22,747 nucleotides of DNA, from positions 1 to 22,747 of the IMG/VR virus record IMGVR_UViG_3300044946_000251; one strand, 5' to 3'. The number at the start of each line of letters is the position of its first letter. The first letter of the stretch is position 1. This document shows, piece by piece, positions 4,020 through 14,882 of the stretch. Both the position numbers and the translations under genes were made by a program. The DNA comes from a virus. The notes under the pieces are model-generated. The model made no database searches. It saw nothing but the letters and a program-made list of their open reading frames with translations, and was not told the origin of the DNA.

Positions 4020-4634
4020 ATGATTGAAATTGCGAGGCGTGACAGTCCAACCCTGGCGAACGCTGATGAGGTTCTGGCGTTGTTTGAGCCTTGGGCGGTG
4101 ATCAATCGAGCCACGCGCGCGGTGCTCATCACCTGTTCCATTCGGCGCCCTGGACCGACCGCGAAACGCTCGGACCGCACTTTGACGGCGCGCGTACTGA
4201 CCGAGCGGCGTTATGGCGATTTGGCCTGGATTCGCGATAGCGGCGAATTAGCCCACTGCGGGCGTTGGGCGCATGAGGCGTTCCGCAAGCCCAATTGCCG
4301 CGAGTGGATCATCGCTGCGCGCCTGTGGCCCTATCTAAGGCGTGGCGAGATCCCTGACACGGTGGAGATCATTGCGGACAGCGCTTTCGTCCGCGATCGA
4401 CGGTTGCGCTTCCAGGCCGAGCACGGCGACGTCTGGCGTCGGCTCATCAATCCGACCAAAGGCGCGGCTTGGTACAACGGCGGCAAGCTTGAGCTGGTCG
4501 ATCGGTTCGGCACGCTCACGGACAAAGAGCTGGCGAAAATTCGCGCTCAAAAGACCGAGCGCAACTGGCAAGCGATCGACGACCGTGAGCCATCGCCCAA
4601 GCGCGACTTCGACGTCGACGACGAGATCCACTGA
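4020..4634 (+). CDS. Hypothetical phage protein
   Basis: This 204-residue protein opens the plus-strand operon. The ATG at 4020 has GGAGG 6 nt upstream; a TTG at 4002 is less likely. The sequence is mixed charged and hydrophobic (VLALFEPWAVINRATRAVLI near the N-terminus, EWIIAARLWPYL in the middle) and ends in an acidic tail (DFDVDDEIH). It has no signal peptide or membrane segment, and I recognise no motif. The composition looks strongly coding. As first gene beside the large regulatory gap it may be expressed early, but that is inference. Confidence 0.75.
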   Translation: MIEIARRDSPTLANADEVLALFEPWAVINRATRAVLITCSIRRPGPTAKRSDRTLTARVLTERRYGDLAWIRDSGELAHCGRWAHEAFRKPNCREWIIAARLWPYLRRGEIPDTVEIIADSAFVRDRRLRFQAEHGDVWRRLINPTKGAAWYNGGKLELVDRFGTLTDKELAKIRAQKTERNWQAIDDREPSPKRDFDVDDEIH

Positions 4635-4669
4635 AGCGCTCTTGACCGCGATCCATTCCTGGCGTCCAT

Positions 4670-4684
4670 TTGCATGATCTGCAA
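4670..4684. promoter_or_regulatory. Palindromic operator TTGCA-TGATC-TGCAA
   Basis: A perfect 5+5 bp palindrome lies 20 nt before the start codon at 4705. A TTGACC at 4642-4647 might be a -35 element, but no good -10 follows at normal spacing. It belongs with the copies at 5065, 17660 and 20900. Confidence 0.5.
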
Positions 4685-4693
4685 GTGGAGTGA

Positions 4694-4701
4694 GGAGTCG
4701 A
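4694..4701 (+). promoter_or_regulatory. First copy of the recurrent ribosome-binding motif GGAGTCGA
   Basis: GGAGTCGA lies 3 nt before the ATG at 4705. Exact plus-strand copies start at 4694, 5332, 5703, 6497, 6963, 7383, 8579, 8865, 9603, 11666, 13165 and 21070, each 2-7 nt before a start codon. Minus-strand copies are at 16123-16130 (before GTG at 16122) and 14793-14800 (before ATG at 14791). GGAG is the Shine-Dalgarno core; TCGA is not predicted by anti-Shine-Dalgarno pairing. Confidence 0.85.
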
Positions 4702-4704
4702 GCC

Positions 4705-4923
4705 ATGCTGTACGGGATCGCCGAGGGCAATTGGACGAGGACGCCAGAACGCGATGAGGCAATAAGGCTTGCGGTCCTATCGGGCCGATCGCTGCGATCG
4801 GTCGGCGATGAGTTTGGCTTGTCGCGTGAGCGGGTCCGGCAGATCTATGCCCTCGGTCAACGGCGTCGGGGATTGAGCCTGCATGTTCCATCCAGTCTCC
4901 CAAGATTTCGGAAAACACCGTAA
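4705..4923 (+). CDS. Small sigma-region-4-like HTH protein
   Basis: This 72-residue protein has one clear domain: residues 15-50 end in DEFGLSRERVRQIYALGQRR, very close to the recognition helix of sigma70 region 4.2. It should bind DNA and could contact RNA polymerase as a small transcription factor. The ATG at 4705 is fixed by GGAGTCGA; an upstream in-frame codon at 4690 is less likely. An operator palindrome lies just before the gene and a T-rich hairpin terminator follows, so it may be a monocistronic, repressor-controlled regulator. It is far too short to be a full sigma factor. Confidence 0.78.
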   Translation: MLYGIAEGNWTRTPERDEAIRLAVLSGRSLRSVGDEFGLSRERVRQIYALGQRRRGLSLHVPSSLPRFRKTP

Positions 4924-4988
4924 AACGAGACAACCTGGGAAAAGGCCTAGTACAGCGTAAACATAGTCACTTCTCAGAACGAACCCTT

Positions 4989-5016
4989 TCGGCTTTGCCG
5001 ACTTTTTCTGTTTTTT
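4989..5016 (+). terminator. Probable intrinsic terminator
   Basis: TCGGC-TTT-GCCGA is followed by a T-rich run of about 14 nt (5003-5016). The stem is only 5 bp but the U-tract is long. It lies 65 nt after the HTH gene, and the -35 box of the next promoter begins at its end. Confidence 0.5.
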
Positions 5017-5043
5017 GACCAGTTTCATGTAGTAGGCTAATTT
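5015..5043 (+). promoter_or_regulatory. Sigma70-type promoter
   Basis: TTGACC (5015-5020), a 17-nt spacer and TAATTT (5038-5043) form a good promoter. The predicted start is near 5050, about 15 nt before the operator at 5065, so a bound repressor could block elongation. The first gene downstream is at 5344, and the transcript would run through the GGGACA array. Confidence 0.55.
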
Positions 5044-5064
5044 GGCCAGAGAAGGGGGCTAGAC

Positions 5065-5079
5065 TTGCAGAACGTGCAA
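5065..5079. promoter_or_regulatory. Palindromic operator TTGCA-GAACG-TGCAA
   Basis: A perfect palindrome; the flanks extend it to CTTGCA/TGCAAG. It lies about 15 nt downstream of the predicted start of the 5015-5043 promoter and belongs to the same family as the sites at 4670, 17660 and 20900. Confidence 0.6.
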
Positions 5080-5101
5080 GGCCAGTGTCCGGGACCGAAA
5101 A

Positions 5102-5241
5102 GGGACAGCTGCGAGGGACAAACCGGGACAAACGAGGACATGGCCGAGCTGGGGACAAGCGCGGGACAAACTGGCTGTTCCTCGAGCCTGGGAAGGGGAC
5201 TGGCTGGGGACAATGTAATAAGGAGTCGGCTCTGCGGGACA
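5102..5241 (+). repeat. Phased GGGACA repeat array (iteron-like)
   Basis: Seven exact same-strand GGGACA hexamers start at 5102, 5115, 5125, 5152, 5163, 5207 and 5236, with variants AGGACA at 5135 and GGGACT at 5196. Three are followed by AAC. An eighth exact copy is at 5302. Many steps are 10-11 bp or near multiples of it, placing the copies on one face of the helix. This resembles iterons or a cooperative protein-binding array. A start-to-stop frame runs through it from GTG at 5085, but it lacks a ribosome-binding site. Confidence 0.65.
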
Positions 5242-5270
5242 AAAATCGTCACGATGACGACGAAAATAGC

Positions 5271-5339
5271 TTGACCGGCGTATCGTAACCCCCCTATTTG
5301 AGGGACAGGCGCCGCCTACGGCGCCCAAACTGGAGTCGA
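5271..5339 (+). promoter_or_regulatory. Leader module A: promoter, 5' hairpin with CCTA loop, GGAGTCGA
   Basis: TTGACC (5271-5276) is followed after 18 nt by TATTTG (5295-5300), with a predicted start near 5306. A perfect 7-bp hairpin, GGCGCCG-CCTA-CGGCGCC (5308-5325), would stand at the very 5' end of the transcript. GGAGTCGA follows at 5332. The -10 box is weak, so support comes mainly from the shared layout with the modules at 7317 and 9537. Confidence 0.5.
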
Positions 5340-5343
5340 ACCC

Positions 5344-5625
5344 ATGAAATTGCGCATTGAGATTGATTGCGACAACGCCGCTTTCGAGCCGTCGCCCAAC
5401 GCTGACCTTGCCCGCATCCTGCGATGCCTCGCGACCGACATTGAGCGCGGGGACATGGATGTCTGCCGCGCTGACGGTTCCTGGTCGCGCCCGCTGATGG
5501 ACTGGAACGGCAACAAGGTGGGCGTTGCCCGCTTCGCGGACGCTCCGGCTCCGGCGCCCGCGTCCAGCGGCCCATCGAGCGACACGTCTATCTCGCAGCG
5601 TGCGAAACGCTTGCGGCGCTACTGA
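5344..5625 (+). CDS. Hypothetical phage protein
   Basis: This 93-residue protein begins MKLRIEIDCDNAAFEPSPNA. Its N-terminal half has the alternating pattern of a small alpha/beta domain (LARILRCLATDIERGDMDV), followed by GSWSRPLMDWNGNKVGVARF and a low-complexity proline/alanine/serine tail. The same layout is common among small uncharacterised phage proteins, but I cannot name the family. GGAGTCGA lies 4 nt before the ATG. Its TGA stop (5623-5625) directly abuts the first hammerhead ribozyme, so cleavage would leave this message with a structured 3' end. Confidence 0.75.
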   Translation: MKLRIEIDCDNAAFEPSPNADLARILRCLATDIERGDMDVCRADGSWSRPLMDWNGNKVGVARFADAPAPAPASSGPSSDTSISQRAKRLRRY

Positions 5626-5687
5626 AGGCGAAACGCGACCGGCCGGAGCCGATCGCGTCACGGCGTTGTGCGCCGTCTGACGAGCCT
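5626..5687 (+). ncRNA. Type II hammerhead ribozyme 1
   Basis: Stem II is AGGC (5626-5629) with GCCT (5684-5687). GAAA is at 5630-5633. Stem III pairs CGCGA (5634-5638) with TCGCG (5653-5657), and an inner CGGC/GCCG stem closes a CGGA loop. T5658-C5659 completes the GUC cleavage triplet. Stem I is ACGGCG/CGCCGT (5660-5665, 5671-5676), then CTGACGA (5677-5683), matching CUGANGA. Cleavage is predicted between 5659 and 5660. It lies between a stop codon and the GGAGTCGA of the 5715 gene. Confidence 0.9.
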
Positions 5688-5714
5688 ACCGTCTGAACCA
5701 CTGGAGTCGAATCT

Positions 5715-6167
5715 ATGAACACCTACGAGCCGATTAGCGACGAGCGTCGCGAAGAACTGGCCAGAGCCACAGCTATCGGTCGCGAGCGTTCTCAGCGCCC
5801 GTTCGCGTTCGAGGACTTGCCCTACCGCAACGGCAAGCGCGTCGAGCCCGAGTCCTGGGGGCCAATTTACACCAAGCCAGCGAAACCCGGCCGCAAGGTC
5901 GCGGTCGACACTTGGCCGACTAATGCCCCGAGCGGGCAGAAGACGGCGCACGTCGACGACGCCAAACACCGCGCAAAGATCCGCGCTGAGTTCGCGGCGC
6001 AGGCTAACGCCGATCGCGCCGCCTGGGCGACCGGCAAACTCTCCCTCGACCGCGTCGGCATGCACGGGGGCATTGTCGAGGCCTACAAGGCGGCCATGGC
6101 GGCCAAGCGCGAGCGTCTCGCCCGCGAAGCGCTGCCGGTGCGGTTCCCGCTCGCGAGGGCAGCATGA
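5715..6167 (+). CDS. Hypothetical phage protein
   Basis: This 150-residue protein is charged and probably mostly helical, rich in alanine, arginine and lysine (KHRAKIRAEFAAQANADRAA; YKAAMAAKRERLAREAL). The N-terminal third contains EDLPYRNGKRVEPESWGPIY. I recognise no domain, signal peptide or membrane segment. GGAGTCGA is 4 nt before the ATG and hammerhead 1 lies immediately upstream, so its mRNA is predicted to start with the ribozyme's stem I hairpin. The stop overlaps the next start as ATGA, so the two genes are probably translationally coupled. Confidence 0.75.
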   Translation: MNTYEPISDERREELARATAIGRERSQRPFAFEDLPYRNGKRVEPESWGPIYTKPAKPGRKVAVDTWPTNAPSGQKTAHVDDAKHRAKIRAEFAAQANADRAAWATGKLSLDRVGMHGGIVEAYKAAMAAKRERLAREALPVRFPLARAA

Positions 6168-6418
6168 GCGCGCTGCAAGACGCCGTCGCGGTCGCGGAGC
6201 TGCGCTACGCCATGGAACCATGGGAGCGGCACGTCATGGTGAAGTTCTCCGCTCATCCCAGGCGGCCGGTCCGCCATCTGAAGCTCTACCGCGACGAGCG
6301 CGGGCTCTACGTGATCATGGGCTTCTACGGGAAGCGTCGCCGCTACCTCGATGAGATGGGCGACGGGCGGGTTCTAAGCCACGTCCAGACGCTGGCGATC
6401 TTCTATGAGGTGAAATGA
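6164..6418 (+). CDS. Small hypothetical protein
   Basis: This 84-residue protein has a basic central region with a beta-hairpin-like pattern: HLKLYRDERGLYVIMGFYGKRRRY. It begins MSALQDAVAVAELRYAMEPW. The family is not recognised. It has no GGAGTCGA of its own; the ATG overlaps the previous stop as ATGA, so translation depends on coupling. Hammerhead 2 begins 4 nt after the stop codon, which would separate this two-gene message from the next. Confidence 0.72.
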   Translation: MSALQDAVAVAELRYAMEPWERHVMVKFSAHPRRPVRHLKLYRDERGLYVIMGFYGKRRRYLDEMGDGRVLSHVQTLAIFYEVK

Positions 6419-6421
6419 CCA

Positions 6422-6488
6422 AGGCGAAACGCGCGAGGCCTGCCACGGGCCTCCTGCGTCTCGGCGTGATGCGCCGACTGATGAGCCT
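6422..6488 (+). ncRNA. Type II hammerhead ribozyme 2
   Basis: Stem II is AGGC (6422-6425) with GCCT (6485-6488), and GAAA is at 6426-6429. Stem III pairs CGCG (6430-6433) with TGCG (6455-6458) and GAGGCC with GGCCTC (6435-6440, 6448-6453) around one mismatch. T6459-C6460 completes GUC. Stem I is TCGGCG/CGCCGA (6461-6466, 6472-6477), then CTGATGA (6478-6484). Cleavage is predicted between 6460 and 6461. Against ribozyme 1, the first stem I pair changes from A-T to T-A. Confidence 0.92.
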
Positions 6489-6509
6489 ACCAAACTGGAG
6501 TCGAAGACC

Positions 6510-6854
6510 ATGGAATGCATGATCGAAGTGAAGGCCGCCGATATTCGCATTGGCGACCGAGTGGACCTTGAGGGCGATGACATTGCCGACTGGGACGGAC
6601 GGCTGGTCGCTTGCGAGTTGGCGACTGTCACTGGAAGCGAGCGCGAGACGGCGGACTGCGTGCGCGTTGATTTTGAGGACGAGTCCTTTGGGTTCCCGCC
6701 GGAGCATCTTTTGCGCATCGTGCCTCGCACCGCAGATCGCGGCTGGGAACATGTCCGCGAATATCTGTTGCAGCCTGACGAGTTCGGCGCGGTCACGGGC
6801 GAATATGACCCGATCGACATCGAAGAGGGCGGCAGCGGGAAAGTCTACGTCTGA
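6510..6854 (+). CDS. Hypothetical acidic phage protein
   Basis: This 114-residue acidic protein begins MECMIEVKAADIRIGDRVDL, a pattern typical of small beta-barrel folds in which a strand ends in an IRIGDRV-type turn. FEDESFGFPPEHLLRIVPR follows in the middle, and the C-terminus is acidic (DPIDIEEGGSGKVYV). Acidic phage proteins can be inhibitors or DNA mimics, but nothing specific supports that here. GGAGTCGA precedes the ATG by 5 nt; a second in-frame ATG at codon 4 is less well spaced. It lies between hammerheads 2 and 3, so processing would yield a monocistronic RNA. Confidence 0.75.
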   Translation: MECMIEVKAADIRIGDRVDLEGDDIADWDGRLVACELATVTGSERETADCVRVDFEDESFGFPPEHLLRIVPRTADRGWEHVREYLLQPDEFGAVTGEYDPIDIEEGGSGKVYV

Positions 6855-6879
6855 GGAACGCGAGCGGGACTCTGAACCA

Positions 6880-6945
6880 GGGCGAAACGCGGAGGCCCGT
6901 CCTGGGGCCTCTGTGTCGCGGCGTAAGGCGCCGCCTGATGAGCCT
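6880..6945 (+). ncRNA. Type II hammerhead ribozyme 3
   Basis: Stem II is GGGC (6880-6883) with GCCT (6942-6945), including one G-U pair. GAAA is at 6884-6887. Stem III is nearly continuous: CGCG with TGTG (two G-U) and GAGGCCC (6892-6898) with GGGCCTC (6905-6911). T6916-C6917 completes GUC. Stem I is GCGGCG/CGCCGC (6918-6923, 6929-6934), then CTGATGA (6935-6941). Cleavage is predicted between 6917 and 6918. The end pair of stem I is G-C here, against A-T and T-A in copies 1 and 2. Confidence 0.92.
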
Positions 6946-6973
6946 ACTCACAGCAATCTGAAGGAGTCGAGAA

Positions 6974-7150
6974 ATGGACTGCGTAAACATCATTACGCGC
7001 TGCCGCGAGATTCGTCGCGAGGCGCGCCGCGCGGAAGAGGCCATCAAGAGCGGCGATTCAACCCGGTGCGGTTTGGCGATGAGCGTGCTGGAGCTTCACC
7101 TTCAGGCCATCCGCGCCGAGCTGGATTCGCGGCGGAAGGAGCTGCGCTGA
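6974..7150 (+). CDS. Small helical hypothetical protein
   Basis: This 58-residue protein runs from ATG at 6974 to TGA at 7148-7150. It is basic and almost wholly helical, with two segments, CREIRREARRAEEAIKSGD and LELHLQAIRAELDSRRKEL, that suggest a helical hairpin or short coiled coil. Three cysteines lie in the N-terminal two thirds, but not in a clear zinc motif. GGAGTCGA is 3 nt before the ATG, and hammerhead 3 lies just upstream. The stop overlaps the next start by one base (TGATG). Confidence 0.72.
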   Translation: MDCVNIITRCREIRREARRAEEAIKSGDSTRCGLAMSVLELHLQAIRAELDSRRKELR

Positions 7151-7320
7151 TGACCCGCAAAATTCGCTGGCGGCGTGTCGTCTGCCCGATCTGCGGCGAT
7201 CGTATCACCAACAATGCGCTGGGGAAGGCGGCGCATATTCGCCACTGCACCAAGGAAAAGGCGGCGGCCAGGGCCGAGGCCGAGCGGCGCGCCCGCAATC
7301 CAAAATCGTCGCCATCTTGA
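7150..7320 (+). CDS. Small C2HC zinc-finger protein
   Basis: This 56-residue protein begins MTRKIRWRRVVCPICGDRIT. It has CxxC followed by HIRHC (CPIC...H..HC), the spacing of a small C2HC/C2H2-type zinc finger, then a basic alanine-rich helix (KEKAAARAEAERRARN). It probably binds nucleic acid or protein. The ATG shares an A with the previous stop (TGATG), and GGAG lies 9-10 nt upstream. Its TGA is embedded in the TTGACA of the next promoter. Confidence 0.75.
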   Translation: MTRKIRWRRVVCPICGDRITNNALGKAAHIRHCTKEKAAARAEAERRARNPKSSPS

Positions 7321-7390
7321 CAGTTTTTGCATCTAACGCTATCTGAGAGGGGCGCAGGCCTACCCGCGCCCTTTAACTTTTTGGAGTCGA
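7317..7390 (+). promoter_or_regulatory. Leader module B: promoter, 5' hairpin with CCTA loop, GGAGTCGA
   Basis: TTGACA (7317-7322), 17 nt, TATCTG (7340-7345), predicted start near 7352. The hairpin GGGCGC-a-GG-CCTA-CC-c-GCGCCC (7350-7371) has one mismatch and is followed by a T-rich stretch and GGAGTCGA (7383). The 19 nt around the -35 box (7313-7331) match module C (9533-9551) with one mismatch. The hairpin can be read as a 5'-end stabiliser, an attenuator or a terminator of the upstream operon. Confidence 0.65.
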
Positions 7391-7395
7391 ACCCA

Positions 7396-8310
7396 ATGCG
7401 AGACATGCACCGCGAGATCACCGACAAGATTCTCGCTCAGCTGAAAACTGGCGTTGCGCCCTGGCGCAAGCCCTGGTCCGAGCGCGTTGGCGCGCACGGC
7501 AGCGTCATGCCGCGCAACGCGGTCACCGGCCGCTTCTACAGCGGCGCTAACGTCCTGTTGCTCTGGGGCGTGGCCGAGGTCGAGGGCTACAGCACGCCGC
7601 GCTGGCTGACCTTCAAGCAGGCCAAGGCGGCAGGCGGCAACGTCAAGAAACACGAGCACGGCGTCGCCGTGATCTTCGTCAAGCGCATGCTCGTGAAGGA
7701 CGATAAGAATCCTGGCGAGAAAAAGACCATTGGTTTCTTGCGCAGCTACACGGTTTTCAACGTGGCGCAGTGCGAGGGGCTGCCGGATTCGGTCATGGGC
7801 CTGGGCGAGCCTCGCCAGCATGCCCCGGTCAATCCTGACGGGCGCGACGCTGATCTCGACGCCTTCGTCGCCGCGACCGAGATCCGCATCGAGGAAGGCC
7901 GAGGCGCGCGCGCCCAGTATGCGCCCTCGCTCGATCGCATCCAGATGCCCGCGTTTGAGGCCTTTGTCGGCGCCCATGCCTTCTACAGCACGCTCTTTCA
8001 TGAGATGGGCCACGCGACCGGGCATCCCTCGCGCCTGGGCCGCGAGCTGAAGGGCAAGTTTGGGGACCGCGAATATGCGGCCGAGGAGCTGATCGCCGAG
8101 CTAACGGCGGCTTTCGTCTGCGCCGAGTGGGGCATCGACATGGGCGAGGCTCCGGCCGCCTACATCGACCACTGGGTTTCGCTCCTGTCCCAGAAAGAGA
8201 CGGCGATCGTGACCGCCGCCAGTGCGGCCAGCAAGGCCGTAGACTGGTTACGCGGCAAGGTGAGTGCAGAGGAGGCGGACGAGGAGGAACCCGCTCTGGA
8301 GGCCGCCTAA
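7396..8310 (+). CDS. ardC: ArdC-like antirestriction protein (zincin metallopeptidase)
   Basis: The N-terminal ArdC domain is clear (residues 1-130): ITDKILAQLKTGVAPWRKPW, then TGRFYSGANVLLLW and WLTFKQAKAAGG. The C-terminal half carries the zincin motif HEMGH at about 202-206, inside STLFHEMGHATGHPSRLGR, and AAEELIAELTAAFVCAEWGI. ArdC proteins bind single-stranded DNA and protect incoming plasmid or phage DNA from host restriction. The 304-residue length is normal for the family. The start is fixed by GGAGTCGA 5 nt before ATG at 7396. It has its own promoter module, which fits early, strong expression. TAATG links it to the next gene. Confidence 0.93.
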   Translation: MRDMHREITDKILAQLKTGVAPWRKPWSERVGAHGSVMPRNAVTGRFYSGANVLLLWGVAEVEGYSTPRWLTFKQAKAAGGNVKKHEHGVAVIFVKRMLVKDDKNPGEKKTIGFLRSYTVFNVAQCEGLPDSVMGLGEPRQHAPVNPDGRDADLDAFVAATEIRIEEGRGARAQYAPSLDRIQMPAFEAFVGAHAFYSTLFHEMGHATGHPSRLGRELKGKFGDREYAAEELIAELTAAFVCAEWGIDMGEAPAAYIDHWVSLLSQKETAIVTAASAASKAVDWLRGKVSAEEADEEEPALEAA

Positions 8311-8597
8311 TGCCCGCCATCGTCGATCTGAGCGGAATCCGTTTCGGGCGGCTCATTGCCGTCCGACTCGCCGCGCGAGCTGGCAAGCACACATTTTGGA
8401 ATTGTTCATGCGACTGCGGCGCGACCTCGATCGCGCGCAGCAACAATCTGCGCAGGGGCCACACAAAGTCTTGTGGCTGTTTGGATCGTGAGCTGCGCGC
8501 TCATTGGAACGAGGTTAGGGGCGCCGCCGCTCAAGAGAAACGACAAGCAGAGGCGGCACGCGCCCTCGGTCGATTGAAGGAGTCGAACCATGATTGA
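8310..8597 (+). CDS. Small zinc-ribbon-type protein
   Basis: This 95-residue protein carries FWNCSCDCGATSIARSNNLR and then HTKSCGCLDRE: two cysteine clusters (CxCxCG and CGC) linked by a short loop. The pattern W-C-CDCG...L..G.T.SCGCL is common in small phage proteins and next to HNH endonucleases, and probably binds zinc or DNA. No HNH catalytic residues follow; the C-terminus is a charged helix. The ATG shares an A with the ardC stop (TAATG), so it is likely translated by coupling. It overlaps the next gene by 8 nt. Confidence 0.75.
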   Translation: MPAIVDLSGIRFGRLIAVRLAARAGKHTFWNCSCDCGATSIARSNNLRRGHTKSCGCLDRELRAHWNEVRGAAAQEKRQAEAARALGRLKESNHD

Positions 8598-8796
8598 TGC
8601 CCCAAGCGAAGACGCCGTTGAACTGTATCGCGTGGCGTTGCGCGCCCTCGCGCTCGCCGGACTCTATTCGGCGGAGGAGGTTGGCTACGCGCTGGGCCGC
8701 CTCAGAAGCGAGCAATCGCGGATCACTCGCGATGACAACGAGTGGAAGGCGTTCGAGCATATGTGCGACGCCCTCCAGCTCGCCGCGATGGGTTGA
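8590..8796 (+). CDS. Small helical hypothetical protein
   Basis: This 68-residue acidic protein is predicted to be mostly helical: DAVELYRVALRALALAGLYS, EEVGYALGRLRSEQ, EWKAFEHMCDALQLAAMG. I recognise no family. GGAGTCGA lies 3 nt before the ATG, inside the end of the previous gene, so the gene has its own ribosome-binding site even though it overlaps the preceding coding sequence. It ends 13 nt before the hairpin at 8810-8834. Confidence 0.72.
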   Translation: MIDAPSEDAVELYRVALRALALAGLYSAEEVGYALGRLRSEQSRITRDDNEWKAFEHMCDALQLAAMG

Positions 8797-8809
8797 GCGA
8801 ACGTGAGGC

Positions 8810-8834
8810 CATGCGCGTCTAGGCGGCGCGCATG
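8810..8834 (+). repeat. Leader hairpin CATGCGCG / CGCGCATG
   Basis: A perfect 8-bp stem with a 9-nt loop (TCTAGGCGG) lies between the genes at 8590 and 8877. No U-tract follows. It fits the pattern of a stable hairpin placed ahead of GGAGTCGA (8865), but no promoter or ribozyme core is visible. Confidence 0.55.
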
Positions 8835-8876
8835 ACCGGACGATCGATCGATCGAAACCGAGAAGGAGTCGAACCC

Positions 8877-9086
8877 ATGGAACACCAAAGCGCGCGAGAC
8901 GCGGAGCACTACCTCCTCGATCGCGACGATTACATCCGGCTTTGTCGCATCATGACTAAGCTTTTTGAGAGCAACGACAAACCCGAGCTGCGGACAGCCG
9001 ATGCGCGCCGCGATATGGCGCAGGAAATGAACAATTGTTTAGGCCGCGCTTTGCCTTATGGGCCAACCCATAGGGGGCTGCGATGA
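8877..9086 (+). CDS. Small hypothetical protein
   Basis: This 69-residue protein begins MEHQSARDAEHYLLDRDDYI and continues CRIMTKLFESNDKPELRT. It is charged and helical with no recognised motif. GGAGTCGA lies 4 nt before ATG at 8877; the frame is also open upstream (from 8832) but without a ribosome-binding site. The stop overlaps the ATG of a 14-codon mini-ORF (ATGA), the first link of a chained overlap to the gene at 9124. Confidence 0.7.
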   Translation: MEHQSARDAEHYLLDRDDYIRLCRIMTKLFESNDKPELRTADARRDMAQEMNNCLGRALPYGPTHRGLR

Positions 9087-9127
9087 GCCTGCGCTATAGC
9101 TGGGTCCGCAATCAGGTGGAGCTGTGA
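9083..9127 (+). CDS. Mini-ORF of 14 codons bridging two genes
   Basis: The ORF encodes MSLRYSWVRNQVEL. Its ATG overlaps the previous stop (ATGA) and its TGA overlaps the GTG start of the next gene (GTGA). The GGTGGAG that could serve the 9124 gene lies inside it. It may be a translational coupling device rather than a source of a functional peptide. Similar bridges occur at 17643-17684 and 21899-21961. Confidence 0.4.
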   Translation: MSLRYSWVRNQVEL

Positions 9128-9522
9128 CCCGGCCTCACAGCATGGCGAGGTCCAGCCGCCCGGTTTGCGTCCACTGTGGCGCCAAGTATGGCCAGCGCCA
9201 TACGCATCAGGAGGACGTGCGCTGGCCCGAGGGCGAGCCGATGCCGAGCTATACCGGCAACGGCGTCGTCTGGAAGACGAGCGAGCCGAGCCGGCTGGGG
9301 CTCAAAGCGGAGTTCCTGGCCGATCAGCAAAAACGAACCTCATGGGCTGGCGGCCTCGCGCGCAAGAGGGAAGAGCCGGACCCGCGCTTCTACACCGACA
9401 CGCCCACCCTGCACGCCTACCGGGAAGTGTGGGACGGCGAATCGTGGACGGGCGGCTATGACCCGTTCTGCACGCTCCGCTGCGCGCTGAGTTACGCCCG
9501 CAAGGCTTATGCGGCGAGATAA
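9124..9522 (+). CDS. Zinc-ribbon phage protein
   Basis: This protein is 132 residues if it starts at GTG 9124, which overlaps the stop of the mini-ORF; ATG at 9142 is the alternative. CVHCGAKYGQRHTHQED near residue 15 supplies two cysteines and two histidines, and FCTLRCALSYARKAY at the C-terminus supplies two more cysteines, so a split zinc-binding site is likely. The middle is polar with aromatic residues (YREVWDGESWTGGYD). The last CxxxC-helix resembles the ends of small TRASH/FCS-type zinc fingers, but I cannot assign a family. Confidence 0.75.
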   Translation: MTRPHSMARSSRPVCVHCGAKYGQRHTHQEDVRWPEGEPMPSYTGNGVVWKTSEPSRLGLKAEFLADQQKRTSWAGGLARKREEPDPRFYTDTPTLHAYREVWDGESWTGGYDPFCTLRCALSYARKAYAAR

Positions 9523-9536
9523 AAACTGGCGTCATC

Positions 9537-9610
9537 TTGACGGTTTTTGCAGAGCATGCCATATCAGGACCGGGCGGCGCCTACCGCCCGGTTTTCTTTT
9601 TTGGAGTCGA
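9537..9610 (+). promoter_or_regulatory. Leader module C: promoter, strong hairpin plus U-tract, GGAGTCGA
   Basis: TTGACG (9537-9542) is followed after 17 nt by CATATC, a poor -10, with a predicted start near 9572. The hairpin CCGGGCGG-CGCCTA-CCGCCCGG (9570-9591) has an 8-bp GC stem and is followed by TTTTCTTTTTT. By sequence alone this is a textbook intrinsic terminator, yet GGAGTCGA and the helicase start lie directly behind it. It could end the upstream operon, attenuate, or cap the 5' end of the helicase mRNA. Confidence 0.6.
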
Positions 9611-9615
9611 GTTCA

Positions 9616-11610
9616 ATGGCAATCAAAGTTGTGCAAGAGGGCCGCATTTGGATCGCGCGGTCCGACTACGCGGACAAGGATATCGTGAAGGCGGCCGGGT
9701 TCCGGTGGAACCCCGATCGCAAAATCTGGTGGACCGACAAGCCGGAAGTCGCGGCCAAGATCGACGGCGACAACGCGGACCTCGTCGCCCGCATCAACGC
9801 CGAGCGGCAGGCGCAGCATCAGGCTCGCGAGGCCTCCATTGTCGCCTCGCACGCGACCGATGCCGCGATCGACCTTCCCTTGTCCGACGTCTGCCGCAAG
9901 TTAGGGCTCAACTACCTCCCCTACCAGCGGGCCGGGATCGCTTATGCGGCGGCGCGCACCAATACCCTGATCGGCGATGAAATGGGCCTGGGCAAGACGA
10001 TCCAGGCTGCGGGCGTCATCAATGCCACGCCGTCGATCCGCAAGGTTCTGGTCGTCTGCCCTGCGAGCCTCAAAATCAATTGGGAGCGGGAGCTGCGAAA
10101 GTGGCTGGTGCGTCCGCTCAGCATTGGCGTCGCCAACGGCGGCTGGCCGGCGACTGACGTTGTGATCGTCAATTATGACGTGCTGCGCAAGTTCGACGCA
10201 GAGATCAAGGCGGTGGACTGGGATCTCGCGATCTTCGACGAGTGCCACTACGTCAAGAACGGCAAGGCGCAGCGCACCCAGGCGATATTCGGCAAGTGGG
10301 ACGCTGACGCGAAGGCCTGGAAGGTCGCGCCGATCCGCGCTGCGCGCCGCCTGTTCTTGACCGGCACGCCCATCTTAAACCGCCCGAAAGAACTGTGGAC
10401 GATCGTTCACGCGCTCGACCGGCAGGGGCTGGGCGCCAATTGGCGGGGCTTCCACGTCCGCTACTGTGCCGGTCATCAGACCGAATATGGCTGGGACATC
10501 GACGGCGCGTCGAACCTCCCCGAGCTGAACAGCAAGCTCCGCGCTGCGTTCATGATCCGCCGGCTGAAGAGCGAAGTTCTGACCGAGCTGCCTGCCAAGC
10601 GCCGGCAGGTGATCGTGCTTGAGCCGAGCAAGAAGGCGCGCGCCCTGATCGAGCGGCAGAACGCCCTCGCAGAGCGCGTCACAAAGGCCAAGGAAGCCCT
10701 CGCCGCGTCGAAGGCCTCAGAGGACCCCAAAGCGTTCGAGGCGGCTGTAGCCGCCCTGGAGGACGCCTCTGGGGCCGCTTTCGAGGAAATGTCCGCGCTG
10801 CGGCATGAGATCGCCCTCGCCAAGCTTCCTCAAGTCATCGAGCACGTTCGCGATGCGCTGGACGGCAGCGAGGGGAAGATTCTCGTTTTCGCCCATCACC
10901 GAGACGTCGTCGAGGCGCTAACGAAAGAGTTCGCCGATGTCGGCGCGGTCAAGCTCATGGGCGGCGCCAGCGCCGATGACAAGCAGGCGGCGATCGATCG
11001 TTTCCAGACTGATCCGAGCTGCCGCGTGTTTGTCGGTTCGATCAAGGCCGCCGGCGTTGGCATCACATTGACGGCGGCGACTCACGTTGTCTTCGCCGAG
11101 CAAGATTGGACCCCAGGTTGGAACCAACAGGCCGAGGATCGGGCCCACCGCATTGGTCAGCGCGAGTCGGTTCTCATCCAGTATGTCGTGCTTGACGGTT
11201 CGCTGGACGCGCACATTGCGCAGGTGAACGTGGACAAGGCGGCGATTGCCGACGCGGCGCTCGACAAGCCTGGGGCCGCGCTTCAGCCACTCGCCGCCTT
11301 GGTCGCGCCATTGCCCTCGGCTCCCAAAGCCCCAGAGAAGCCCGCTGGCGGCAACGGCGCGGCCGAGCCGGACGATCTAACCCGCGACCAGATCGCGGCC
11401 ACCCACGAGGCTCTGAGGATCATCGCTGGCATGTGCGACGGCGCCCAGGCCCTCGACGGCTACGGCTTCAACAAGCTGGATAGTTCATTCGGCAAAGATC
11501 TCGCGAGCAAGCTGTCGCTGAGTCAAAAGCAAGCCCGATATGGCCGCACGCTGGCGATCAAATATGGCCGCCAGATCCCGGCGGCGCTCCTGGCGATCAT
11601 CAAAGGCTGA
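9616..11610 (+). CDS. SNF2-family DNA helicase/translocase
   Basis: This 664-residue SF2 ATPase has a short N-terminal module (FRWNPDRKIWWTDKPE, about 29-44), then DEMGLGKTIQ (motif I, about 120-129), FDECHYVKN (motif II, DECH in place of DEAH, about 207-215), FLTGTPILN (motif III), and a C-terminal helicase lobe with FAHHRDVVEAL, AAGVGITLTAATHV and DRAHRIGQ (motif VI). The order matches bacterial and phage SNF2 proteins related to SMARCAL1. Such proteins translocate on dsDNA and may remodel forks, assist recombination or displace host proteins. The C-terminal 100 residues are alanine-rich and less conserved. GGAGTCGA precedes the ATG by 5 nt. Confidence 0.93.
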   Translation: MAIKVVQEGRIWIARSDYADKDIVKAAGFRWNPDRKIWWTDKPEVAAKIDGDNADLVARINAERQAQHQAREASIVASHATDAAIDLPLSDVCRKLGLNYLPYQRAGIAYAAARTNTLIGDEMGLGKTIQAAGVINATPSIRKVLVVCPASLKINWERELRKWLVRPLSIGVANGGWPATDVVIVNYDVLRKFDAEIKAVDWDLAIFDECHYVKNGKAQRTQAIFGKWDADAKAWKVAPIRAARRLFLTGTPILNRPKELWTIVHALDRQGLGANWRGFHVRYCAGHQTEYGWDIDGASNLPELNSKLRAAFMIRRLKSEVLTELPAKRRQVIVLEPSKKARALIERQNALAERVTKAKEALAASKASEDPKAFEAAVAALEDASGAAFEEMSALRHEIALAKLPQVIEHVRDALDGSEGKILVFAHHRDVVEALTKEFADVGAVKLMGGASADDKQAAIDRFQTDPSCRVFVGSIKAAGVGITLTAATHVVFAEQDWTPGWNQQAEDRAHRIGQRESVLIQYVVLDGSLDAHIAQVNVDKAAIADAALDKPGAALQPLAALVAPLPSAPKAPEKPAGGNGAAEPDDLTRDQIAATHEALRIIAGMCDGAQALDGYGFNKLDSSFGKDLASKLSLSQKQARYGRTLAIKYGRQIPAALLAIIKG

Positions 11611-11658
11611 TTGCCAGCGCGCGCGCCTCGACGTTTCGGGGCGCGGTCGCGGGCAATC
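11609..11658 (+). repeat. Long hairpin between helicase and next gene
   Basis: The outer arms are GATTGCC and GGCAATC (11609-11615, 11652-11658). Inside, CGCG pairs with CGCG and CGCGCCTCGA pairs with TCGGGGCGCG (one G-U) around a CGTT loop. That gives about 21 bp with one 2x2 mismatch. It overlaps the helicase stop codon, has no U-tract, and ends 7 nt before GGAGTCGA (11666). It resembles an RNase III substrate or a protective stem. Confidence 0.7.
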
Positions 11659-11675
11659 CCCGGAAGGAGTCGAAA

Positions 11676-11987
11676 ATGGATGAGCTGAATATCAAGAGGC
11701 ATGTCGAAGTGGCGCGTTACCCGCGCCGGTACGAGGTCGATCGCACGCCTATGATCCGCCTGTACAAGTCGAGCCCGGAAAGCGCGACGCTGCAATTGCG
11801 TGGCGAAACCGCATACGCGAGCGCGCAATATCTCAGCGTGAGCGAAATGCGCGAGTTGATCAGCAAGTTTCGGGAGATCGTCGAGGCGATCGAGCCCACC
11901 CAGAAGCTTCACTTCAACATGTTCGCGCGCAAGGAGCCATGGTTTTGGCCGGTCGAGGACGCGGACGAGCGCGGTTCGGAGGGTTAA
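11676..11987 (+). CDS. Hypothetical phage protein
   Basis: This 103-residue protein begins MDELNIKRHVEVARYPRRYE. It has beta-strand-like segments (PMIRLYKSSPESATLQLRGE) followed by a long helix (VSEMRELISKFREIVEAIE) and an aromatic stretch (MFARKEPWFWPVED). It looks like a compact alpha/beta protein, but I recognise no family. GGAGTCGA lies 2 nt before the ATG, and the long hairpin at 11609-11658 is just upstream. The next gene starts 3 nt after its stop. Confidence 0.75.
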   Translation: MDELNIKRHVEVARYPRRYEVDRTPMIRLYKSSPESATLQLRGETAYASAQYLSVSEMRELISKFREIVEAIEPTQKLHFNMFARKEPWFWPVEDADERGSEG

Positions 11988-11990
11988 GCG

Positions 11991-12485
11991 ATGACACTGG
12001 ATAAAATGATGGAACTGGCCAAGGACCAAGCTAACCGGGTGATGGTCGGCACCAAGGACGAGCTGACGCCCATATGGCTCTTGGTCACCGAGAAGGGGGA
12101 CAAGCCGGACGACGTCACGGTCTACGCCACGCCGTGGGGGAACAATCGCGAGAAGCATCTCGTGATCGAAACTATGCGCGACGTCATGCGCGAGAGGCGG
12201 TGCACCGCGTACAGCATGCTGACCGAGGCCTGGATGCTGCGCGTCCAGGGCGTCGGGATCACCGAGGAGAACTACACCGGGCCGACGCCGAGCGAGAGCC
12301 CGGACCGGCAAGAGTGCGTCGTCGCCATGGCCGCCAACAAGGCCGGAGAGCATCGCTACCAGACCTTGCAGACGGTGCGCGCGGCCGATGGAACATGCAC
12401 CGAGCTGCGCGCCCTCTCGGCGGTCGAGGACCGATTCACCGGCGTTTTCGACAATCTTCTCGACAACAAACGGAGGGCGAATTGA
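11991..12485 (+). CDS. Hypothetical phage protein
   Basis: This 164-residue alpha/beta protein contains LTPIWLLVTEKGDKPDDVTV, YATPWGNNREKHLVIETMRD and later ECVVAMAANKAGEHRYQTLQ. The ordered strands around W-L-L-V-T and V-V-A-M-A-A suggest a single globular domain, possibly with bound ligand or metal, but I see no catalytic signature. GGAGGG lies 8 nt before the ATG, an ordinary Shine-Dalgarno sequence rather than GGAGTCGA. The stop overlaps the TTG start of the next gene (TTGA), implying coupled translation. Confidence 0.78.
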   Translation: MTLDKMMELAKDQANRVMVGTKDELTPIWLLVTEKGDKPDDVTVYATPWGNNREKHLVIETMRDVMRERRCTAYSMLTEAWMLRVQGVGITEENYTGPTPSESPDRQECVVAMAANKAGEHRYQTLQTVRAADGTCTELRALSAVEDRFTGVFDNLLDNKRRAN

Positions 12486-12703
12486 GCGCACAGCCCTTTC
12501 AAACATGGACCTTTCTAACCGACGAGGAGCTGAAGCACGGCGCCGCCCTGCATCAAGGCGCAGCGGCGTTTGCTCACGCTGAGTCCGTCGACGCGCTGCG
12601 CCGGGGCATGCCCGATTACGCGGCGGAGTGGCAGAAGGTCCAGGCGTTCCATTATCGCGCCGCCGCAGTGCTGTTGGGCTTCCTGTTGCGGAGGCCGTCA
12701 TGA
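12482..12703 (+). CDS. Small hypothetical protein, TTG start
   Basis: This 73-residue protein starts at TTG 12482, which overlaps the preceding stop; GGAGGG lies 5 nt upstream and there is no ATG in a better position. Residues 10-60 are acidic and helical (FLTDEELKHGAALHQGAAAF; MPDYAAEWQKVQAFHYRAAA), with a short hydrophobic end (VLLGFLLRRPS). The family is unknown. The stop overlaps the following ATG (ATGA). The unusual start codon is inferred from the overlap and ribosome-binding site. Confidence 0.65.
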   Translation: MSAQPFQTWTFLTDEELKHGAALHQGAAAFAHAESVDALRRGMPDYAAEWQKVQAFHYRAAAVLLGFLLRRPS

Positions 12704-12924
12704 AGCAGCGCTTCACGGTCGAGCTGCAACGATACCCGCGCCAAGAGGCGACGATCGAGGTCATGGCAGAGGGCCTCGTCGAGGCGCAAGCGAAAGCCCT
12801 CGACATGGCGCGGAGCGCTGACTTCCCATGGGTCAGCGAACATGAAGGCGCGCGCATCACCAAGGTGATCTGCCACGCCGGGGAGGTGTCCGATGAGCCG
12901 GATTCGGCGCCGCCAGTATCCTAA
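12700..12924 (+). CDS. Small hypothetical protein
   Basis: This 74-residue protein begins MKQRFTVELQRYPRQEATIE and continues VMAEGLVEAQAKALDMARSA. The strand-strand-helix pattern resembles small phage proteins that modify a single-strand motif into an alpha/beta sandwich, but I cannot name it. GGAGG lies 5 nt before the ATG and the gene is coupled to the preceding one by ATGA. Its last 32 nt overlap the next gene in another frame. Confidence 0.7.
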   Translation: MKQRFTVELQRYPRQEATIEVMAEGLVEAQAKALDMARSADFPWVSEHEGARITKVICHAGEVSDEPDSAPPVS

Positions 12925-13180
12925 GCACAGCGGCGACGCCTACGACCGTTTCCTGACCGAGCGGTCGCGGGGCGAGGACGGCGAGTTCTCGTTTGAGAAG
13001 TTCGTCGCGCTGATGCGCTCGCTCGACTGCCCGGATGATTTCGTCCCCGCCGACGGGAATAACGGCACCAAGCGTATGACCGCCGGCATCCTTCTGCGGT
13101 CATGGTTCGGGGACGGGCGAATCAGGTTTCGGGATGGGAGTGTGGTCATACTGAACTTAGACGAGGAGTCGAAACAGTGA
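12893..13180 (+). CDS. Hypothetical phage protein
   Basis: This 95-residue protein has a basic N-terminus (MSRIRRRQYPKHSGDAYDRF) and an acidic, helical middle (GEFSFEKFVALMRSLDCPDD). The C-terminal half (LLRSWFGDGRIRFRDGSVVI) looks like a beta-hairpin. The family is unknown. GGGAGG lies 7 nt before the ATG, inside the previous gene. Its stop shares an A with the ATG of the next gene (TGATG), and the next gene's GGAGTCGA is read here as codons for EES. Confidence 0.7.
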   Translation: MSRIRRRQYPKHSGDAYDRFLTERSRGEDGEFSFEKFVALMRSLDCPDDFVPADGNNGTKRMTAGILLRSWFGDGRIRFRDGSVVILNLDEESKQ

Positions 13181-13398
13181 TGCAAGTTAGCCGGATGAGG
13201 CGCGGTTGGCGTCTGCGTCTCACTGATAACGAGTATGAGATGCTACGCGAGGCGGTGAATCGCGGCCTCGCCACCCTCGACGAGGACCAAATCGAGGCTC
13301 TGCCGTACAAGATCCGCAAGGTGCTCACGCGCGACGGTCGCTGGAGCCTGCCGCACGGCCCTCTGTGGCCCGACGACGACAGGAGGCTCTCGGGATGA
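13180..13398 (+). CDS. Small hypothetical protein, last gene of the plus-strand run
   Basis: This 72-residue protein begins MQVSRMRRGWRLRLTDNEYE and continues MLREAVNRGLATLDEDQIEA. A basic start, a helical core and a tail rich in proline and aspartate (SLPHGPLWPDDDRR) are visible; no family is recognised. GGAGTCGA lies 7 nt before ATG 13180; GTG at 13177 is an alternative start. Eighteen nucleotides separate its stop from the stop of the convergent LuxR-type gene, and no terminator hairpin is obvious between them. Confidence 0.7.
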   Translation: MQVSRMRRGWRLRLTDNEYEMLREAVNRGLATLDEDQIEALPYKIRKVLTRDGRWSLPHGPLWPDDDRRLSG

Positions 13399-13415
13399 AT
13401 AGAGCCGAGAAGCCT

Positions 13416-13646
13416 CTAGCGCCCTTCCAGATCAATCGACGTGAGGATGCCCCGCGCGACCGCGAGGGCGGTCGCTTGTGGCAGGGTGGCGCAATTGAGC
13501 TTGTGGCGCGCTTTGTCGAGATAGGTTTTGACCGTCCCGTAGGCGATGCCAGTGATCGTCGCCGTCTCGTGGTACGTTTTGCCGCGAGCGATCCATAGGA
13601 GACATTCGCGCTCACGACACGAGAGTCCGTTGGCGAGATTGTCCAT
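13416..13646 (-). CDS. LuxR-type HTH protein
   Basis: This 76-residue protein consists almost only of a LuxR/GerE-type HTH: GLSCRERECLLWIARGKTYH, then TGIAYGTVKTYLDKARHKLN and a final helix ATALAVARGIL. There is no N-terminal autoinducer or receiver domain, so it is a minimal DNA-binding regulator. Such stand-alone LuxR tails are common beside phage methyltransferase genes in Rhizobiales, as I recall. It overlaps the end of the methyltransferase gene by 35 nt. The start at 13646 is favoured by the family's N-terminus; no clear ribosome-binding site is seen. Confidence 0.85.
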   Translation of the reverse strand: MDNLANGLSCRERECLLWIARGKTYHETATITGIAYGTVKTYLDKARHKLNCATLPQATALAVARGILTSIDLEGR

Positions 13647-14151
13647 TGGCGCGGCCGATAAAGGTTGCGCGGCGACCGTAGCGATAAAATAGCAGCCACG
13701 CACAATTGTCCTTACCGACATGGGGCGAATTGGGAATCCACCGCACGCGGCCGACGGCGACAATCCGGCGCAGCCGCTTGGCGATGATCGCGCCGGAGGA
13801 CTGGTTGAACAGCCAGTCGCTCGACATCAGGAGCCACGTCGGCGCCTGATCCGAGAGGTTCTCGATCAAGGGATGCAGATCTTTCGGCCGGCCCCATGCT
13901 GGGGGATTTGTGATGAAGATCTCGCCGGGGAGCACGCCGTAGTCATGCTCGCGCGCGTCGGTCGGCAGATCGTGGCGTGCCATCAGCCGGTGCCCTGCGG
14001 CCATTAGGGAGCGCGCCAGCGCCCCTTCGCCGTAGCAAGGCTCTATGAAGGGCGTTCCCCGATGGAGCCAGCCCAGGAGCGGCCTGACGGCCTCCGCAGG
14101 CGTATTGTAGAGATCTCTCTCAACCCTCTCGAACGTGGAGCGCTTGCCCAT
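13612..14151 (-). CDS. Phage DNA methyltransferase-like protein
   Basis: This 179-residue protein begins MGKRSTFERVERDLYNTPAE and carries FIEPCYGEGALA (SAM-binding motif I, about 35-46) and IFITNPPAWGRP (motif IV, NPPAW at about 82-86), which point to an N6-adenine/N4-cytosine-type DNA methyltransferase fold. Target specificity cannot be read. It could protect phage DNA from restriction or alter host regulation. GAGG lies 5 nt before the ATG at 14151. The open frame extends upstream to 14298, but the composition there is poor. The start codon overlaps the ATG of a divergent ORF on the other strand. Confidence 0.85.
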   Translation of the reverse strand: MGKRSTFERVERDLYNTPAEAVRPLLGWLHRGTPFIEPCYGEGALARSLMAAGHRLMARHDLPTDAREHDYGVLPGEIFITNPPAWGRPKDLHPLIENLSDQAPTWLLMSSDWLFNQSSGAIIAKRLRRIVAVGRVRWIPNSPHVGKDNCAWLLFYRYGRRATFIGRANGQSRQRTLVS

Positions 14152-14347
14152 GGCCGCCTCAAAACGCGCGAAGAAATCGGAAGCGCGGCTGCCGCCGGGG
14201 CCTAACCCGGCGGCCAGCCGGCCGATGCAGGTCGCGCCGTTCGGCAAGGCCTGGGCGGTCATCGAAGGCCTGGGCGTGATCTTTGCCAGCCGGGACAAGG
14301 CGGAGTGCGAGGCTGAACTGGCGAGGCGACAAGGGGAGAGCCATTAG
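14150..14347 (+). CDS. Small hypothetical protein opposed to the surrounding run
   Basis: This 65-residue ORF is the only plus-strand gene between 13400 and 20900. It begins MAASKRAKKSEARLPPGPNP and ends AWAVIEGLGVIFASRDKAEC plus a helical tail. Third-position GC is high, as expected for a gene here, and GGAG lies about 10 nt before the ATG. That ATG overlaps the methyltransferase ATG on the other strand through the palindrome CATG (14149-14152). Its promoter would have to lie inside the methyltransferase gene, so it may instead be a high-GC artefact. Confidence 0.45.
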   Translation: MAASKRAKKSEARLPPGPNPAASRPMQVAPFGKAWAVIEGLGVIFASRDKAECEAELARRQGESH

Positions 14348-14491
14348 CCCTCCCCCGTTCCGCCCGTGCTTTCGTTGAGCCAATTGCAAAGTCCCAACGC
14401 CGACGAGGGCGTGGAAGGAACGGTTCAGCCGATCCCTTCTCCTGGGGACCCATCCCGAGGTTGCGTGTCTCACCGGGACGCCGGAGCGAAA

Positions 14492-14791
14492 TCATTTTGT
14501 CGGCTCCACAAACTCGACGCAGTCGAACCGCTGCGCGATCTGGCCCGCCGCAAACTCATCCTTGTGCCGGTTCCAGAAACCGCGACAGGTGGCCTTACCG
14601 CCCTTTTCCTGCGAGTGGCAGATCCGAGATCCCTTGAAGCCGGTCGCGCCCTTATGTTTTTCGCGGACCTGATCTTCTAGGACCGCGATCGGCGTCCCGC
14701 CCAGCTCTTGCCACGCCTTGCTGTAAATGCACGTTTCGCACTGGCGCTTCATCACGGGGAAGCCGCCCAGTAGTATTTTCCCGATCCCCAT
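14492..14791 (-). CDS. Cysteine-rich small phage protein
   Basis: This 99-residue protein starts MGIGKILLGGFPVMKRQCET. Cysteines occur in CETCIYSK, SRICHSQ, ATCRGFW and FDCVEF, suggesting a zinc-binding or disulphide-rich fold; lysines are frequent. I cannot name the family. GGAGTCGA, one of only two minus-strand copies, lies just before ATG 14791, which identifies the start even though an ORF in another frame (14652-14882) covers the same bases. Downstream, a 340-nt stretch without a minus-strand gene separates it from the methyltransferase. Confidence 0.75.
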   Translation of the reverse strand: MGIGKILLGGFPVMKRQCETCIYSKAWQELGGTPIAVLEDQVREKHKGATGFKGSRICHSQEKGGKATCRGFWNRHKDEFAAGQIAQRFDCVEFVEPTK

Positions 14792-14882
14792 CTCGACTCC
14801 TTAGATCCACGAGGTAGGCCTCGATCTCGTCGGCCGCCGCGAGCACCGCCGCGATCGACGCCTTCAGCTCACTGTCGGACAT
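14652..14882 (-). CDS. Small protein with a long overlap of the next gene
   Basis: This ORF encodes 76 residues. Its first 27 (MSDSELKASIAAVLAAADEI onward) look coding: helical, with GC-rich third positions. The remaining 49 (RSRDGDRENTTGRLP and so on) overlap the 14492-14791 gene in another frame, and third-position composition there is not coding-like. The true product may therefore be a short peptide with an accidental tail, or a gene damaged by a frameshift. It overlaps the upstream gene's end by 14 nt. Start 14882 is the only clear ATG. Confidence 0.4.
   Translation of the reverse strand: MSDSELKASIAAVLAAADEIEAYLVDLRSRDGDRENTTGRLPRDEAPVRNVHLQQGVARAGRDADRGPRRSGPRKT

Follow-up and report, generated by a model that had tools for sequence, protein, structure and literature searches.

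We have found that three canonical type II hammerhead ribozymes, designated E1, E2 and E3, lie between genes on the plus strand of the IMG/VR virus record IMGVR_UViG_3300044946_000251, which comes from an uncultured bacterial virus. The whole stretch analysed, positions 1 to 22,747 of that record, is called the window here. The elements occupy 5626–5689 (E1), 6422–6490 (E2) and 6880–6947 (E3), and that they are hammerhead ribozymes is practically beyond doubt. All three share the form A/G-GGC-GAAA-(stem III hairpin)-GUC-(stem I hairpin)-CUGANGA-GCC, and a search of both strands of the window with the core GGCGAAAC..GTC..CTGANGA returns three matches, which are E1–E3, with none in 100 shuffles. 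The catalytic core, i.e., CUGANGA, GAA, A15.1–U16.1 and the NUH cleavage triplet, is complete in each element, and each has the type II permutation, in which loops close stems I and III and stem II is open. An earlier reading of this DNA from its letters alone (the sequence-only reading) had recognised the circular order of a type II hammerhead in three leaders, and both the core pattern, found at exactly these places, and the covariance model scores given below bear it out.

In E1, stem II pairs 5627–5629 with 5684–5686, the stem III hairpin spans 5633–5658, the GUC triplet ends at 5659, and the stem I hairpin (5660–5676) is followed by the core CUGACGA (5677–5683). In the same order, the parts of E2 are 6423–6425 with 6485–6487, 6429–6459, GUC ending at 6460, 6461–6477, and CUGAUGA at 6478–6484, and those of E3 are 6881–6883 with 6942–6944, 6887–6916, GUC ending at 6917, 6918–6934, and CUGAUGA at 6935–6941. 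The ends of the GUC triplets are those predicted earlier, and the 6-base-pair (bp) stem I is likewise as described, its end pair changing from A-T (E1) to T-A (E2) and G-C (E3); its loop has 5 nucleotides (nt), and a U.G within the loop can lengthen the run to 7. For stem III, which had been taken as wholly different in sequence yet paired, only the pairing stands, with an internal mismatch in E2: the base of this stem is largely shared across the elements, and E2 and E3 have GAGGCC/GGCCTC in common. The single stems are less striking than the cores. Actually, among 100,000 letter shuffles of each element, a stem I run at least as long as the real one arises in 776 (E1), 384 (E2) and 89 (E3), and a stem III run at least as long in 2318, 8467 and 74, respectively.

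At the level of sequence comparison, the hammerhead identity of E1–E3 is settled by a covariance model made from phage elements unrelated to them. The model was derived from 19 IMG/VR elements (set A3) whose stem I hairpin is as long as in E1–E3; the contigs identified as ArdC-related contributed none of the 19. It gives 55.9, 54.5 and 51.7 bits to E1, E2 and E3, respectively, while the next-best site of the window reaches 12.0. Set A3, as well as set A4, was picked by descriptors that require the core and the stems, so that the pairing percentages and the core invariance of these sets arise partly by construction. For the stems, this bias is avoided by selecting matches by the core letters alone, which we have done in IMG/VR and in bacterial genomes with two sequence scans, each covering part of its collection. 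Both stems have at least 4 bp in 139 of the 164 distinct IMG/VR elements, a set to which the window's wider (ArdC) family contributes several contigs, compared with 0.5% of 2165 shuffled spacers. A III-stem of 4 bp by itself forms in 20% of shuffles. Among the bacterial-genome matches, the proportion is 22/128. In addition, in 20 elements of the window's own phage family, again picked by a descriptor requiring core and stems, pairing holds in 299 of 300 cells and both partners have changed in 10 of the 15 pairs, with a covariation score of 0.537 versus 0.145 for shuffled elements.

The position of such elements relative to genes also differs from that of random sites. The comparison covers 178 phage elements, 2 of them in the window; 104 of the 121 sources contributed, and open reading frames (ORFs) were called mechanically. 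The upstream stop codon lies at a median distance of 4 nt (170 measured) versus 158 for random positions, and a start codon with a ribosome-binding site follows 25 nt downstream (154 measured) versus 95; only 15 of the 178 fall within a long same-strand ORF, compared with 48% of random positions. In the window itself, the distance from stop codon to element is 1 nt for E1, 4 nt for E2 and 26 nt for E3, and start codons follow 28, 22 and 29 nt past stem II. The sequence-only reading had placed all three just after a stop codon, which is right for E1 and E2 but not for E3, and had them separate consecutive cistrons, which holds between E2 and E3, where one gene lies, but not between E1 and E2, where there are two overlapping genes (5715–6167 and 6164–6418). 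After each element comes the ribosome-binding site GGAGTCGA, at 5703–5710, 6497–6504 and 6963–6970 on the plus strand. Because the 12 exact plus-strand copies of GGAGTCGA in the window, from 4694 to 21070, each stand 2–5 nt before a start codon, it is the general and strikingly uniform ribosome-binding site of this phage, and not a part of the ribozyme.

Judging from these positions, the best reading is that the elements probably process an operon mRNA between its cistrons into shorter messages. Sequence, predicted structure, covariation and position come directly from the present analysis; the cut sites and end groups are what hammerhead chemistry would predict. E1–E3 would be part of a plus-strand transcript of the accessory region of the phage, and each would fold upon transcription. 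Cuts are predicted after each GUC, at 5659, 6460 and 6917, and would split the polycistronic RNA into a message with genes 5715–6418, a message with gene 6510–6854, and flanking pieces. A downstream message would then begin with a 5'-hydroxyl at the stem I hairpin, shortly before its own ribosome-binding site, and an upstream message would carry the stem III hairpin at its 3' end, closed off by a 2',3'-cyclic phosphate. Hairpins by RNA ends are expected to slow decay. Since both new ends would adjoin hairpins, the stability and translation of neighbouring cistrons might be expected to become uncoupled.

On the other hand, several results weigh against active elements that process an operon transcript. 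The type II family of Rfam, RF02276, scores E1 at 25.4 and E2 at 25.3 bits, under the gathering score of 37, which is a curation threshold and not a property of the ribozyme, and it does not list E3 at E<=1. That is, the Rfam covariance search which the sequence-only reading had proposed as a check lists two elements below the threshold and misses the third. As RF02276 also gives sub-cut-off matches in 10 of 14 well-known control genomes at E<=10, it is weakly informative at low scores, and the Rfam score by itself is therefore unconvincing. Folded in isolation, each element has the three-way hammerhead junction as both its minimum free energy (MFE) and its centroid structure, the three helices that close the core being present in each MFE fold (z-scores −2.2, −3.6 and −4.1; equally stable folds in 5, 0 and 0 of 200 shuffles for E1, E2 and E3). 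In a context of 121–126 nt, however, the whole hammerhead stays the MFE structure only in E2: E1 goes to another fold (z-score −0.7, with 44 of 200 shuffles as stable), and E3 keeps stems I and III and loses stem II. A loop I–tail helix of at least 4 pairs was not found in E1–E3, the best having 3 pairs in each, and the cleavage rates could therefore be low. In the published work on such elements, 4 of 18 consensus hammerheads tested showed no cleavage in the passages concerned (PMC3088659). Finally, a promoter scan of 4600–8600 found 0 with 0.6 expected, and reveals little of the transcription unit.

When the sequence around E1 is included (5600–5720), an alternative fold becomes possible in which GCGGCGC, the end of the preceding gene, pairs with the 3' strand of stem I; a ribosome stationed at the stop codon would do away with this fold.

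The loop I–tail pseudoknot of at least 4 pairs is reported as possible for the majority of type II hammerheads in passages of PMC3088659, hence it is not strictly defining for them. E1–E3 have in common a U-NNN-G pentaloop on stem I together with a UAC tail. Among 139 IMG/VR elements, a UA tail is found in 22 of the 29 with a U-NNN-G 17-nt hairpin versus 16 of the 110 others, a count that includes other ArdC-family contigs and is uncorrected for relatedness. This association suggests that the pentaloop subclass has a different loop–tail contact. The subclass pattern has no match in the genome-contig collection.

The sub-threshold Rfam scores, together with the absence of a loop–tail pseudoknot of at least 4 pairs, would also suit leaders that stay uncut, in which the hairpins serve as stabilisers or attenuators and the core is inactive. 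We consider this very improbable. The core is complete in E1–E3 as well as in the corresponding elements of two sister phages (L122 and L124), while the letters of the stems change pairwise, and hairpins alone have no need of CUGANGA, GAAA or GUC. The core invariance in sets A3 and A4 is no argument in this respect, since those searches required the core.

Processing by clustered hammerheads is not a new idea. According to passages of Perreault et al. (2011, PMC3088659), clustered phage hammerheads flank single genes, and cleavage into single-gene mRNAs was proposed; tandem phage hammerheads cleave in vitro, and a triple from Agrobacterium tumefaciens also does so in E. coli; and clustered hammerheads are linked to ardA. 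Passages of a 2017 review (PMC6155905) add that in prokaryotes hammerheads are persistently associated with phages and often found next to small, non-conserved ORFs, that cleavage leaves a 2',3'-cyclic phosphate upstream and a 5'-hydroxyl downstream, and that what hammerheads do in bacteria and phages counts as an open question. The consulted part of a structural paper on pseudoknot hammerheads (PMC11300833) has no bearing on phages. In the window, several hammerheads stand close together in a virus record and flank single genes or short blocks, so this locus is a clear further case of the arrangement proposed in 2011. Like the type II hammerheads of RF02276 in the passages above, E1–E3 have the core, the three stems, the permutation with stem II open, the GUC site and the phage setting; they differ by the low score (~25 bits versus 37 for E1 and E2), by the U-NNN-G pentaloop with UAC tail, and by lacking a Watson–Crick loop–tail pseudoknot of at least 4 pairs. 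The prophage clusters given in the same passages (the A. tumefaciens triple around ardA, Azorhizobium caulinodans and Clostridium scindens) similarly flank single genes or short blocks, and the Agrobacterium one is likewise near an antirestriction gene. Unlike them, the window is from another phage, has ArdC rather than ArdA, and includes one two-gene and one one-gene interval, with cleavage as a prediction. The passages of PMC3088659 and PMC6155905 contain neither the density described below for R4-like phages, nor the closeness to stop codons, nor the pentaloop subclass.

Tandem cleavage on the same strand would also give the ends that are right for circularisation, according to hammerhead chemistry (passages of PMC6155905), so one may imagine that an RtcB-type ligase, or the ribozyme acting in reverse, closes the fragments with their 5'-hydroxyl and cyclic phosphate into circular messages. 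As Perreault et al. detected no spliced or circular products in the passages concerned (PMC3088659), we give circular messages very little credence, and processing into shorter linear messages is preferred.

A much denser arrangement of the same kind exists in R4-like Streptomyces phages (Arquatrovirinae). The IMG/VR contig L034, with five pattern matches, matches Streptomyces phage Hank144 at 100% identity over 7001 bases, and 139 Streptomyces phage records (some of them duplicates) resemble it. We have compared the annotated corresponding regions of 16 of these phages. The descriptor finds 104 elements there, all on the coding strand and 4 of them in an annotated coding sequence (CDS), and 0 on the opposite strand and on the reversed sequence of the 16 regions. 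RF02276 at E<=0.05, run on 14 of the 16 regions (L138–L149, L151 and L152; L150 and L153 are therefore left out of the counts), gives 130 matches, 116 of them above the cut-off. Overall, the 14 regions hold 134 hammerheads, 8–11 each. The genes of the run all point the same way, and most of the elements follow a stop codon and precede the next ribosome-binding site: the upstream stop codon is no more than 20 nt off in 96 of 132, and the start codon downstream is at 15–35 nt in 91 of 132. Of the 134 elements, 12 share more than 45 nt with an annotated CDS.

In the 14 regions a hammerhead is present in 88 of 92 gaps of 61–130 nt, in 14 of 21 longer gaps, and in 8 of 46 gaps of 6–60 nt, i.e., 38 of these 46 are without one. 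The corresponding 0/129 for gaps of 5 nt or less follows by construction, since an overlap of at least 25 nt with the gap was required; in the descriptor results for all 16 regions, 0 of 145 such gaps are touched by any element. The descriptor alone fills 72 of 112 gaps of 61–130 nt in the 16 regions, and Rfam supplies the rest. In whole-record searches at E<=0.01, R4 has 8, Hank144 9 and Janus 10 elements, on one strand at ~41.8–49.5 kb. None of the 16 feature tables of these regions contains a ribozyme. We have found no published description of this cluster in a literature search of mostly non-subscription journals, in which the only match for hammerhead ribozyme and Streptomyces phage, PMC9239200, is listed as being about aminoglycosides. 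The window resembles these phages in that its type II hammerheads, too, stand between stop codon and ribosome-binding site along genes that all run one way; the R4-like phages differ in having 8–11 copies per region, longer stem I hairpins and 116 of 130 Rfam matches above the cut-off. In 4 of the 16 regions (L138, L144, L148 and L151) the annotation includes an Ocr-like antirestriction gene, where the window has ArdC.

The near-complete filling of wide-enough R4-like gaps fits the proposal that each element would be a cut-and-cap unit between cistrons. A broader proposal may be put forward only tentatively, that in some phage lineages the hammerhead has become the standard intercistronic punctuation of the early or accessory transcript, filling loosely packed gaps from its place between stop codon and ribosome-binding site, with ribosomes at stop codons timing the cut and the cistrons ending in hairpins, so that accessory genes can be swapped regardless of their neighbours.

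The timing part of this proposal deserves separate consideration. If a terminating ribosome covers a strand of stem II, cutting would have to await its release, and the release of a message would be coupled to translation of the gene upstream; the argument is one of ribosome footprint. The spacing of E1 and E2 (1 and 4 nt) allows such timing, the median over the 170 phage elements is 4 nt, and among 99 elements of annotated Streptomyces phages, 45 have the stop codon no further than 5 nt away (43 of 132 in the Rfam-based count). In E1, moreover, a ribosome at the end of the upstream gene would remove the competitor of stem I. However, E3 is 26 nt from its stop codon, the Streptomyces phage medians are 11 nt (descriptor) and 14.5 nt (Rfam-based), and tight packing by itself would give short distances. 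We regard a translation-timed switch as rather unlikely, and processing as such is kept as the preferred reading. Because R4, Hank144, Pablito and others are cultured and annotated, the function can be tested in them directly, and the value of the window locus lies in having led to a wider pattern that sits in cultured phages. The host recorded for R4 is Streptomyces coelicolor A3(2), according to its record.

Relatives of the window phage were reached via its 114-amino-acid (aa), 150-aa and ArdC-like proteins, and are virus contigs that measure up to 78 kb. With the sister L122 the window shares 99.6% identity over 6472–9851, an alignment that begins inside E2. At the position of E2, L122 has a hammerhead with different, still paired stems, which Rfam scores at 39.3 bits, above the cut-off of 37. 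The DNA of gene 6164–6418, upstream of the start of this alignment, does not align to L122, nor to the sister L125, where a 60-aa ORF stands instead; E1 and its neighbourhood (5347–5791) have no counterpart in L125; and in L124, other DNA sits between two hammerheads, the E2–E3 DNA of the window being unalignable there. Over 5346–6980, hammerhead-flanked DNA differs between the window and L122, L125 and L124, and the neighbouring DNA is up to 99.6% identical.

The elements might then be regarded as borders of exchangeable gene cassettes with a main role in recombination, each half travelling with its own gene. The homology to L122 and L125 that starts inside E2, the absence of the E1 region from L125 and the unalignable E2–E3 DNA in L124 are all in line with this, and there is weak tracking of the halves in the Streptomyces phages: where only the upstream flank is shared, identity of at least 90% is seen for the 5' half in 3 of 7 and for the 3' half in 0 of 7 cases, and where only the downstream flank is shared, in 5 of 18 and 7 of 18, respectively. 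But these differences are small under a looser definition of a shared flank, and hammerhead gaps contain no more homology ends than other gaps do (47.2 versus 48.4 per kb, with 19.9 in coding DNA). A main role as cassette borders is therefore quite improbable, and the recombination role suggested by the sister phages is not claimed here; intercistronic processing again remains the better reading.

Seven related records searched whole have 1–5 elements apiece near ArdC, all scoring at least 42 bits; two further matches, below 20 bits, were excluded. Among the 12 ArdC-relative sources, 3 (L158, L161 and L162) have no element by the descriptor, and the L161 record has one by the covariance model. 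In addition, 38 phage records, including phages of Caulobacter, Brevundimonas, Sphingobium and others, show distant DNA similarity at the SNF2 helicase and ArdC genes, from which we infer an alphaproteobacterial host.

The genes around E1–E3 are all on the plus strand. Upstream of E1 is a 93-aa ORF (5344–5625) with a weak match to phrog_9027, of unknown function. It is followed by the 150-aa ORF (5715–6167), the 84-aa ORF (6164–6418), whose start overlaps the stop codon of the former, the 114-aa ORF between E2 and E3 (6510–6854), which has an identical protein in L122, and the 58-aa ORF downstream of E3 (6974–7150); none of these four has a PHROG or Pfam family. Downstream of the ribozyme cluster comes the ArdC-like antirestriction protein (7396–8310; phrog_7245, PF08401, PF18818). 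Terminator-like matches number 9 in 4600–8600 versus 3.6 expected; none lies within the three leaders, and two overlapping plus-strand ones lie within gene 6510–6854. An Rfam match to DUF2693-FD at 5488–5524 (E 0.13, 24.9 bits, gathering score 44.5) was treated as chance.

PHROG matching reveals no common function of the flanked genes past 'accessory'. A total of 135 hammerhead-adjacent proteins (75 of 96 downstream and 60 of 81 upstream) match 63 PHROG families, and 19 of the 25 families listed are without description. For control proteins of the same loci, 133 of 165 match 99 families, and the 25 of these that are listed include terminases and thymidylate synthases. Antirestriction genes do recur beside hammerhead clusters in a few cases, i.e., ArdC in the window (7396–8310), Ocr-like in 4 of the 16 R4-type regions and ArdA in the published case.

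Certain relatives and other contigs show variants of the pattern. In L160 (4932–4996) and L163 (2315–2380), GAAAG...CUC replaces GAAAC...GUC, a compensated change of the pair adjoining the cleavage site that gives a CUC triplet. On the minus strand of L014, two pattern matches stand back to back (5060–5110 and 5126–5184), 15 nt apart and without room for a gene. Four bacterial contigs, L174 (Cellulomonas), L206 (Sphingomonas), L246 and L272, have three two-stem elements each and are perhaps prophages.

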